DNA from: Niastella vici
GTDB lineage: Bacteria > Bacteroidota > Bacteroidia > Chitinophagales > Chitinophagaceae
Assembly: GCF_002077945.1 (NCBI RefSeq)
Contig: NZ_LVYD01000001.1
Span: forward strand, 682,001-746,000
Direction: 5' to 3'
Length of the DNA stretch: 64,000 nucleotides
Positions 11,601-13,876 of the stretch are shown one piece after another. The position numbers were made by a program, and so were the translations under genes. The number at the start of each line of letters is the position of its first letter. The first letter of the stretch is position 1. The notes beneath the pieces are model-generated. The model worked only from the letters and a program-made list of their open reading frames with translations. It was not told the origin of the DNA and ran no database searches.

Positions 11601-11716
11601 AGGAAGGGCAAAAGGTCTCCTTATGCTTAATAATGGTTCAGGTTGAAAACAGAGATTAAAGGGGAAAGTGGTTTTATTGTTCCCATTGCGGGAATACTTT
11701 AGGAAACGCTTCGCTT

Positions 11717-11753
11717 AAGCTTCGGTTATCCTTCGGTCAAGCTTCGGTTATCC
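11717..11753. repeat. two direct copies of a 15-bp repeat
   Basis: AAGCTTCGGTTATCC occurs at 11717-11731 and again at 11739-11753, a period of 22 bases, with the related CTTCGGT in the spacer. Confidence 0.85.
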
Positions 11754-12013
11754 CGGATTGGGAAATGTGACAGTTTTTTTAGGACGAGGCAGTTTGTACC
11801 TTAAGACCTACATAATACATTGTACTTTATAAAATATAATCTTTTATTGCCTTCAGGGCTATTTTGGAAGAATTCGGAAGGAGTTTTTGCTGTTTGGGAG
11901 ACTGTAAAATCATATTTTAAGGGTCAGATCAGAAAAATTTTGCCTTTTTATATGATTTAGATCACAAAAAATTCGCGGAATTGAAAAAAACTTCTATATT
12001 AGCAGTGGCAAAT

Positions 12014-12042
12014 AAAAAAAGCCACCTGTAGAAACAGCTGGC
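12014..12042 (-). terminator. minus-strand terminator of the candidate small RNA
   Basis: On the minus strand GCCAGCTGT and ACAGGTGGC form a 9-base stem with one mismatch and a four-base loop, followed by TTTTTTT. No protein gene on this strand ends nearby, so the terminator points to a noncoding transcript. Confidence 0.75.
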
Positions 12043-12163
12043 CTCTAACGATTGCTTGCCATATGAAAAAAGAGATAAATCTATTTGTCTTTTTGAATAC
12101 CGCGTCTTAACTTGCCGTATTCTTTTGAGCCTCTAATGATTGCTTTTACTCTAACGATTGCTT
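12043..12163. repeat. three copies of CTCTAACGATTGCTT
   Basis: Exact copies are at 12043-12057 and 12149-12163; a copy with one substitution is at 12131-12145. The last two are tandem with an 18-base period, the first stands apart. All lie inside the candidate minus-strand RNA. Confidence 0.9.
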
Positions 12164-12192
12164 CCCATAACCATTTTGCTCATTTGCTGAAT

Positions 12193-12224
12193 CAAAAGTA
12201 GGATGTAAATCCGTACCTTTCAAA
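12193..12224 (-). promoter_or_regulatory. minus-strand promoter for the candidate small RNA
   Basis: On the minus strand TTTG (12224-12221), 20 bases, then TACTTTTG (12200-12193) match the Bacteroidota consensus TTTG, 19-21 nt, TAnnTTTG without mismatch. Predicted start of transcription is near 12187. Confidence 0.65.
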
Positions 12225-12313
12225 ACATCTTACTACCGGTTTAATTACGCCAAAAGCGTGAAAGAAATCCTAAAACCCTTACCGGTATTGAGTTTCAGGC
12301 AAATTTCATAATT

Positions 12314-13876
12314 ATGTCCAACCGATTTACAGACGCGTTGTTTCAATTGGTTCATTCATTGGAGAAGTCGGAAAAGAGGCACTTTAAGCTTTATATAAAA
12401 AGGAGTTCGGCAAACGAAGATTTAAAGATCATCAGGTTATTCGATGCGTTGGATAAATTGCCCGAATATGACGAAAAGTTGTTGCTGAAAAAGTTACCCG
12501 ACATTCAGAAGCCGCAACTTGCCAACATAAAAACACATTTATATAAACAGTTACTGGCCAGTCTTAGGCTGTTAAAAGCTACCGAAAATATTGATCTTCA
12601 GCTGAGTGAGCATCTTGACCATGCCCGCGTACTTTACAATAAGGGATTAAAACTGCAAAGCCTTAAAATTCTTGAAAAGGCTAAGGAGATCGCACGCGCC
12701 AACCAGAAATTTAATTTCCTGGCCCAGGTAATTTCCCTTGAAAAGAAGATCGAAACCCTTCATATTACCCGCAGTTCAACAGAAAAAACCCAGGTACTGG
12801 CCGAAGAGGCGCTGGAGATCAGCAGCCACATTGACCGGGTTACCCGGCTTTCGAACCTGGCCCTGCTCCTGTACCGGTGGTTTGTGCTGAATGGCCATGC
12901 GCGTAACCCGGAAGACGTACAGGAATTAAACACTTTCTTTAAGGAATACCTGCCTGCCGATGTAAATGCCGTAAATGGCTTTTACGAAAAACTATACCTG
13001 TACCAGAGCTATAGCTGGTATGCATTTATTCAGCAGGACTTCTTAATGTACTACCGCTACGGTCAAAAATGGATCGATCTATTTAATGAACAGCCGCTGA
13101 TGAAGGAGGTGGAAACTGGTCACTATATAAAAGGTATGCACAACCTGCTGAATGCCCATTTCGATCTGCGTAATTTTAAACAGTTTGAAATTACATTAAA
13201 GCAGTTTGAAGAATTTTCCGAAACGCCGGTAGCCAATCACCACGATAATTTTCGCACGCATACCTTTATTTACATCAACAGCGCCAAGATCAATCAACAC
13301 CTGATGCAGGGAACCTTTCGCGAAGGGCTTGCACTGGTACCTTCTATTGAAGAGAAGCTGGAAGAATATTCGCTGTATGTTGATCAGCACCGGATCCTGG
13401 TTTTCAATTACAAGATCGCCACCCTGTATTTCGGGAATGGGGAATATGAAAAGTGTATTGACTACCTGCAAAGGATCATTAACGGGCCGATTGACCTGCG
13501 TATAGACCTGCAATGTTATGCCCGGTTATTGCACATGCTGGCCCACTATGAAATGGGTAATTATGAGTTGATGGAATCGCTCACCAAATCGGTTTTCCGG
13601 TTTATGGCGCGTATGAGAAATATAACCGTGGTAGAAGAGGAAATGGTGAAGTTCCTGCGAAATTCATTTGGCGTTAGTCCGCGGGAGTTAAAACCTGAGC
13701 TGGAGAAATTTTTAACCAAGATCAAACATCTTGAAAAGAACCGCTACGAAACCAGGGCATTTGCCTACCTCGATATTATTTCCTGGACCGAAAGTAAAGT
13801 ATACCAGAAACCGATGCGCGAAGTGGTGTATGAAAAATATTTAGAAAGCAGGCACCGGTCAACCGTTAAAGCCTGA
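12314..13876 (+). CDS. alpha-helical, TPR-like protein of unknown function
   Basis: This 520-residue protein has no signal peptide and no membrane segment, so it should be cytoplasmic. It is almost wholly amphipathic helix, with TPR-like pairs such as those around residues 120-160 (LQSLKILEKAKEIARA) and 370-400 (YFGNGEYEKCIDYLQRII), but the consensus is too weak to assign repeat boundaries. The N-terminus (MSNRFTDALFQLVHSLEKSE) looks like that of a conserved Bacteroidota family of unknown function. It is monocistronic; its upstream region holds the candidate small RNA on the other strand. Confidence 0.8.
   Translation: MSNRFTDALFQLVHSLEKSEKRHFKLYIKRSSANEDLKIIRLFDALDKLPEYDEKLLLKKLPDIQKPQLANIKTHLYKQLLASLRLLKATENIDLQLSEHLDHARVLYNKGLKLQSLKILEKAKEIARANQKFNFLAQVISLEKKIETLHITRSSTEKTQVLAEEALEISSHIDRVTRLSNLALLLYRWFVLNGHARNPEDVQELNTFFKEYLPADVNAVNGFYEKLYLYQSYSWYAFIQQDFLMYYRYGQKWIDLFNEQPLMKEVETGHYIKGMHNLLNAHFDLRNFKQFEITLKQFEEFSETPVANHHDNFRTHTFIYINSAKINQHLMQGTFREGLALVPSIEEKLEEYSLYVDQHRILVFNYKIATLYFGNGEYEKCIDYLQRIINGPIDLRIDLQCYARLLHMLAHYEMGNYELMESLTKSVFRFMARMRNITVVEEEMVKFLRNSFGVSPRELKPELEKFLTKIKHLEKNRYETRAFAYLDIISWTESKVYQKPMREVVYEKYLESRHRSTVKA

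Follow-up and report, generated by a model that had tools for sequence, protein, structure and literature searches.

In Bacteroidota, SusC transporters form the gateway to polysaccharide utilisation. Outside this phylum, LhrC of Listeria is reportedly a multicopy small RNA (sRNA) that acts on mRNAs of surface proteins through several redundant pairing motifs; its motif is said to be CU-rich and to target Shine-Dalgarno regions. In gut Bacteroides, sRNA control of SusC translation has been described, the seed of the sRNAs FopS and GibS pairing at the translation start of SusC-like mRNAs (PMC11697453). According to the same article, FopS is bound by the RRM protein RbpB and has been deposited in Rfam (PMC11697453).

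The DNA analysed here, a stretch of 64,000 nucleotides referred to below as the window, most likely produces an sRNA that belongs to a multi-copy family of the Chitinophagaceae. As in FopS and GibS, the members are predicted to be paralogous Bacteroidota sRNAs in several copies, with canonical promoters, a 3' terminator hairpin and some 3'UTR-derived representatives (FopS has one), and the pairing with SusC starts described for FopS is found here by complementarity alone. However, the FopS seed R1' is placed by the same source at the unpaired 5' end, whereas the best-conserved seed of the present family lies directly before the 3' terminator and is often repeated in the 5' part. FopS was reported from Bacteroidaceae, the present family from genomes of Chitinophagaceae. 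Rfam gave no match, in a release (15) that may lack a FopS model. Judged by complementarity, the RNA would thus work like FopS while differing from it in seed position, architecture and host range, and kinship with FopS is not claimed. With LhrC, as described above, it would share the multicopy state, the several redundant pairing motifs and the surface-protein targets, but the phylum and the sequence are different. Like 3'UTR-derived sRNAs, some members located in the 3' region of an open reading frame (ORF) would share its terminator, whereas a separate promoter-like box precedes most members.

Anatomy and conservation of the predicted RNA

The features of the locus are listed below in window coordinates.

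12221-12224, minus strand: -33 promoter element TTTG, read from the sequence
12193-12200, minus strand: -7 promoter element TACTTTTG, read from the sequence, 20 nt after TTTG
12014-12188, minus strand: predicted small RNA of ~170-175 nt, its start deduced from the promoter
12127-12181, minus strand: 5' domain of the predicted fold, with seed copies 1 and 2, closed by GAGC/GCUC
12149-12163, minus strand: seed copy 1, AAGCAATCGTTAGAG, exact, its last letters varying within the genus
12131-12145, minus strand: seed copy 2, AAGCAATCATTAGAG, with one change, G-to-A
12095-12122, minus strand: GAATAC/GTATTC hairpin, arms 12122-12117 and 12100-12095
12042-12071, minus strand: 3' core UUUUUUCAUAUGGCAAGCAAUCGUUAGAGG, near-invariant family-wide
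12043-12057, minus strand: seed copy 3, exact, inside the 3' core
12014-12042, minus strand: intrinsic terminator, hairpin GCCAGCTGTTTCTACAGGTGGC (12042-12021) followed by T7 (12020-12014)
12314-13876, plus strand: gene of a TPR-like protein of 520 aa, divergent from the RNA; Pfam TPR_1 match below the cut-off

A preliminary description of this DNA had proposed a regulatory RNA of no recognised family, delimited by a minus-strand promoter (TTTG-N20-TACTTTTG) and a U-tract terminator, with no gene in between, a GAATAC/GTATTC hairpin and three copies of a 15-nt element, one of them with a single change. The promoter elements, the terminator hairpin with its T7 and the arms of the other hairpin were all located at the positions given above, and three copies of AAGCAATC[G/A]TTAGAG, two exact and one variant, were found on the minus strand. 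Three ORFs of at least 20 aa overlap the RNA; they are 25-29 aa long, all start with TTG, and two lie on the other strand. ORFs shorter than 20 aa do occur within the stretch. Judged from its sequence, the RNA stretch is without a credible gene. The Rfam search gave no match at the gathering threshold in the window, and at E <= 10 (positions 11900-12350) or E <= 5 (four array loci) only sub-threshold matches to unrelated families were obtained.

When up to two mismatches are allowed, the 15-nt element occurs three times in the 64-kb window, where 0.21 occurrences would be expected; in 100 shuffles, three occurrences were never reached. The predicted RNA folds slightly better than shuffled sequences (z -1.86; 9 of 200 shuffles equally good), and seed copy 1 has a predicted mean unpaired probability of 0.68. 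The six pairs of the GAATAC/GTATTC hairpin are constant in all 8 aligned sequences, so that sequence variation neither supports nor rejects this hairpin; the closing pairs GAGC/GCUC of the 5' domain are invariant as well, and variation is therefore no test of the predicted domain.

In a search of 59 genomes, the stretch was matched in all nine same-genus genomes covered, over 231-241 of its 241 nt and with 91-96% identity. The conservation in relatives anticipated by the preliminary description was borne out in these nine genomes, where the layout of promoter, terminator and repeats is kept: all nine copies share the window's -7 box TACTTTTG without change, and the -33 TTTG is altered in two, to TTCG (L003) and ATTG (L006). 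Within the genus, copy 1 retains GCAATCGTTAG and copy 2 retains AGCAATCATTAGAGG, with varying ends, and the G-to-A variant of copy 2 is present in all 10 aligned sequences. The repeats and the terminator are conserved, whereas the DNA downstream of the terminator diverges.

A 3' module shared across the Chitinophagaceae

The search of 59 genomes also returned many further partial matches, confined to the third repeat and the terminator and often arrayed at spacings from ~350 nt upwards. Together, the third copy and the terminator make up a 3' module that recurs elsewhere in the genome and in the family, beyond what the preliminary description could see. That description had called for a covariance search with a model built from homologues; when this was done, with a model of 61 positions derived from 43 distinct modules, the family-wide extent of the module became apparent. 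The core is near-invariant across the 43 modules and better conserved than the terminator hairpin. RNAalifold detected compensatory, two-sided changes in 6 of 13 pairs, all six in the terminator stem (one pair, for example, is U-A in 28 and C-G in 15 of the 43 modules, which had been selected for the presence of a T-run).

In the window's genome, the model found 8 strong copies, paralogues with promoter-like boxes and terminators as in other multi-copy sRNAs, and weaker ones from E 8e-5 down. At E <= 1e-5, the module was present in 165 of 244 genomes and 71 of 101 genera of the window's family, with 1-11 copies each. When genomes were drawn class-wide, 6 of 9 family genomes were positive and 4 of 386 others gave weak matches (E 0.0015-0.008); when drawn order-wide, the figures were 8 of 11 and 2 of 108. 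An extension of the family outside the Chitinophagaceae was rejected, the weak matches being at about the chance level for E <= 0.01 per genome. The exact core was found in at least 120 stretches of named genomes and, among the matches listed, in Niastella, Niabella, Segetibacter, Hydrotalea, Filimonas, Sediminibacterium, Pinibacter and other Chitinophagaceae, as well as in MAGs with broader labels and MAGs labelled Flavobacterium and Pedobacter. Viral contigs contained no exact core match, and spread by viruses was rejected. One genome, G013, carries a diverged form of the module (CATATAGC..., CAAATAGC...; loci L095, L103, L107 and L109), and two of these four modules have a GTCCCGCATTTC-type hairpin.

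In the open-licence literature, no paper mentioned the element as DNA or RNA, its complement or either of two core 15-mers, and among the matches listed for sRNAs of Chitinophagaceae, Niastella and Chitinophaga nothing concerned this RNA; those listed for SusC and multicopy sRNAs included the FopS paper. The modules appear to define a conserved Chitinophagaceae sRNA family that is undescribed in the literature covered by these searches.

The regions upstream of the modules were compared in 191 upstream-distinct members (200 before removal of similar ones). A TAnnTTT[GA] box occurs within 255 nt upstream of the core in 144 of them, against a mean of 47 in shuffles. These promoter-like boxes are concentrated 70-140 nt before the core, and a box combined with TTG/TTTG at promoter spacing was seen in 57 members (4.7 in shuffles). 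For the 125 members with a box at 70-140 nt, the median predicted RNA length is 162 nt, and the average fold (73 of these 125 RNAs) has the U-tract partly or fully paired, together with the four letters at the end of the core. An exact GCAA[TC]CG lies in the 5' part of only 74 of the 191 members, compared with 1.6 in shuffles; in 57 members, against none in shuffles, a GUUAGAG-like half comes after it at a distance of up to 60 nt, the two halves being contiguous or split by up to 41 nt. The window RNA with its two tandem 5' copies represents one version of a common design. In L029 and L317, a TAnnTTTG box that has no -33 TTG at the proper spacing was observed 13 nt ahead of the core, which would leave a possible minimal RNA of little beyond core and terminator. 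At 18 of the 191 members, an Ala/Asp/Ser/Thr/Lys-rich ORF ends at most 90 nt upstream, the module lying in its 3' region (21 ORFs were found in this position, three of them of other composition). These ORFs have repeats like VDSAAKK, for instance at loci L027, L163, L180, L182 and L185 among others.

The divergent TPR-like gene accompanies many modules. An orthologue (55-100% identity, the window itself counted) starts 171-269 nt upstream of 76 of the 183 distinct modules with enough flank, and 12 further modules lie 0.6-1.9 kb from an orthologue, several of them being extra array members at that place. In Niastella yeongjuensis (L178) the same three-gene layout is found, with TPR-like and PIF1-like proteins 90% and 83% identical to those of the window. 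The mean column identity of the TPR-like protein is 76% over 28 sequences. The locus beside this gene may be the ancestral locus of the RNA. A 60% identical TPR-like homologue at L270 has no module nearby. Sequence comparison found no relative of the protein with a solved structure. In NCBIfam, it gave a full-length, sub-threshold match (148 bits, cut-off 550) to the ribose-utilization family of BT_2802, which we take to be RusR. RusR is described as a regulator of the Rus locus of B. thetaiotaomicron (PMC12596196).

Complementarity to SusC translation starts

The complement of the 3' core UUUUUUCAUAUGGCAAGCAAUCGUUAGAGG resembles a translation start site (GCUUGCCAUAUGAAAAAA), and the preliminary description had suggested that mRNAs complementary to the 15-nt element be sought. 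As a background, G004, a same-genus genome in a single contig, was sampled in 60 stretches of 20 kb (1.2 Mb), which gave 889 long-ORF start regions; background starts were the first ATG of long ORFs, and SusC starts were picked by a signal-peptide rule, the same for every set. In this sample, AACGATTG was present in 3 of 7 SusC-like ORFs and in 6 of 882 others. Since the SusC idea arose from these hits, and at least two of the genes recur in the genus set, the independent test is the comparison of other carrier genera with non-carriers.

SusC proteins were defined by TIGR04056. The genus set came from 70 of 106 scored matches in two genomes, the carrier set comprised 50 starts from six other carrier genera, and the non-carrier set comprised 49 starts from seven module-free genomes (29 of 30 loci usable, plus 20), among them G015, a genome of the same family without the module. 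Once near-identical starts had been removed, the sets held 61 (genus), 50 (carriers), 25 (G015) and 24 (other non-carriers) starts; sister genomes are not independent of each other in these counts. The 19-nt core had a perfect complement of at least 7 nt, lying no more than 60 nt from the AUG, in 31 of 61 genus starts and in 18 of 50 carrier starts, compared with 0 of 25 in G015, 3 of 24 in the other non-carriers and 73 of 889 among all ORFs. The other 30 of the 61 genus starts have no such 7-nt site; several orthologous SusC pairs keep the site and other pairs have none. The complement of the copy 2 variant was seen at the start of 1 of 61 genus SusC genes and 0 of 889 ORFs.

Duplex energies, from which mRNA structure was left aside, were expressed as means relative to 150 background ORFs and compared with those of 100 dinucleotide-shuffled cores. 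The mean shift corresponded to z values of -5.0 for the genus, -4.0 for the other carriers, +0.4 for G015 and -1.6 for the other non-carriers, the number of shuffled cores reaching as low a value being 0, 0, 60 and 5, respectively; in the non-carriers other than G015 there is thus a weak tendency in the same direction. With simple shuffles and the first SusC sets (61, 30 and 29 starts), 0, 0 and 59 of 150 were as low. When the duplex energy was followed along the genes in 60-nt windows centred at set distances from the AUG, 30 genus genes gave means of -13.3 at +20 and -11.0 at +60, against -8.7 to -9.9 elsewhere. The corresponding values for 30 carrier genes were -11.9 and -11.8, against -9.0 to -10.2, and 29 non-carrier genes gave -8.9 at +20 and -10.1 at +60 and +100.

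The sites lie before the AUG or in the early codons in, respectively, 18 and 14 of the 61 genus starts and 5 and 10 of the 50 carrier starts, compared with 0 and 0 in G015, 0 and 1 in the other non-carriers, and 32 and 32 of all 889 ORFs. As both positions are represented, this is not only a codon effect. Within the first 20 codons of carrier SusC genes, 7 of 22 RL dipeptides are encoded by CGATTG, compared with 36 of 1249 within genes. The best duplexes include ones across the start codon, for example UUUUCAUAUGGCAAGCAAUCGUUAGA pairing with CCUAACGAGCUUGUUCGUAUGAGAC from -18 to +6, with a lowest energy of -25.9 kcal/mol. UUUUUUCAUAU is complementary to AUAUGAAAAAA, which is a common start context, and this complementarity may explain why UUUUUUCAUAU is conserved. 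When all 889 start regions are taken together, the core has no advantage in pairing over shuffles (19 regions at <= -16 kcal/mol, against a mean of 31), and signal-peptide-like genes as a whole, SusC included, are weakly enriched (27 of 241 against 46 of 648, p 0.035). The search for complementary mRNAs led to SusC starts, which are enriched for such sites in carriers and not in genomes free of the RNA.

The family, its conservation, its promoter-like and terminator anatomy and the SusC-start complementarity in carriers are computed results. With a probability of roughly 0.7, we read them as a multi-copy family of trans-acting sRNAs that would block the translation of SusC/RagA-type transporters. 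The RNA, presumably transcribed from the promoter described above, would end in an almost invariant core, predicted to be partly single-stranded, followed by its own terminator; in many members, including the window RNA, the 5' part would hold extra copies of the core centre, which may serve as additional seeds. The core would pair with the start codon or the first codons of SusC/RagA-type transporter mRNAs and so block translation initiation, the effect presumably being repression rather than activation. In this way the cell could turn down many glycan-import operons together. The preliminary description had seen the repeats as seeds or protein-binding sites. The complements at SusC starts give better support to the seed and leave the protein-binding site as the weaker half of that proposal; together with the kept -7 box, repeats and terminator and the family-wide module, they favour the regulatory RNA with repeated seeds.

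Competing and wider explanations

If the core chiefly bound an RNA-binding protein, for example of the RRM-1 type, the RNA would titrate this protein in a CsrB-like manner and susC pairing would be secondary. A nearly invariant core and repeated, often split copies in the 5' part would suit such a role, as would the proteins available: Hfq was over the cut-off in none of 59 genomes (two sub-threshold matches), RRM_1 occurs in 50 of the 59, with 9 matches in the window's genome, and in family genomes outside the genus the median number of RRM_1 genes is 3.5 in 18 carriers against 1 in 8 non-carriers (p 1e-4, a value that ignores phylogeny and genome size). We nevertheless consider titration unlikely, since it leaves the difference in SusC-start complements between carriers and non-carriers unexplained and an RRM gene was found at 1 of 219 module-bearing loci; repeated sites are present, but no sponge partner emerged among the proteins searched (Hfq and RRM_1; 59 genomes, 219 loci). 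Pairing of the long invariant stretch with ribosomal RNA is hardly credible, 47 of 60 shuffled cores pairing at least as well in the 5.9-kb rRNA locus.

The core can also be read as a five-codon ORF, AUGGCAAGCAAUCGUUAG (AUG GCA AGC AAU CGU UAG, MASNR-stop), which would make it a translated mini-gene or part of a dual-function RNA. Its letters are identical, and the frame hence open, in 196 of 211 distinct modules, and in 6 of the 15 changed modules the ATG is retained and codon 6 is still a stop, in some of them TAA or TGA, while one (L114) has a synonymous change; but the ATG is lost in 6 of the 15 and the stop in 4, one module lacking both, and the modules with kept stops stem from few genomes. 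The letters outside the ORF (UUUCAU, AGAGG) are equally invariant, copy 1 of the window is directly preceded by an in-frame ATG but copy 2 is not, and SusC complementarity receives no account, so that we regard the mini-ORF as improbable. Changed modules keeping MASNR-stop through TAA or TGA, one of them with the synonymous change, were observed at L094, L102, L108 and L114. Slightly less probable still is an element acting at the level of termination, a conserved terminator with an upstream transcription-control sequence placed behind various transcripts and without function in trans. The 18 of 191 members close behind an Ala/Asp/Ser/Thr/Lys-rich ORF would agree with it, as would the terminator common to the 43 aligned modules, though these were chosen for their T-run; against it stand the promoter-like box in 144 of 191 members, a core better conserved than the hairpin, and the SusC complementarity.

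The blocking of SusC translation by a trans-acting sRNA family remains our preferred reading. If it is true, a separate family in the Chitinophagaceae would mean that such control of SusC either evolved repeatedly or goes back further than assumed, and that it operates in bacteria without Hfq over the cut-off. It also names specific targets and sites, open to experiment in relatives that can be cultured, for instance Niastella. More tentatively, the observations could be read as a second, independently evolved Bacteroidota route to post-transcriptional SusC silencing. The 3' core would then be a generic antisense of the start site (anti-AUG-AAA-AAA with an upstream or early-codon seed), each RNA carrying one to three seeds; it would have been multiplied in gene arrays and perhaps also be read as the five-codon mini-ORF, and it would be controlled with or through the divergent, distantly RusR-like protein that marks the ancestral locus.

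Two other repeats were noted downstream of the RNA. Three imperfect 22-nt tandem copies (CTTCGGTTATC-like) with 11-nt spacing occupy the intergenic positions 11709-11752, and a 16-nt inverted repeat, 81% complementary and with a 20-nt loop, lies at 11907-11958, between the RNA and the PIF1-like helicase gene.
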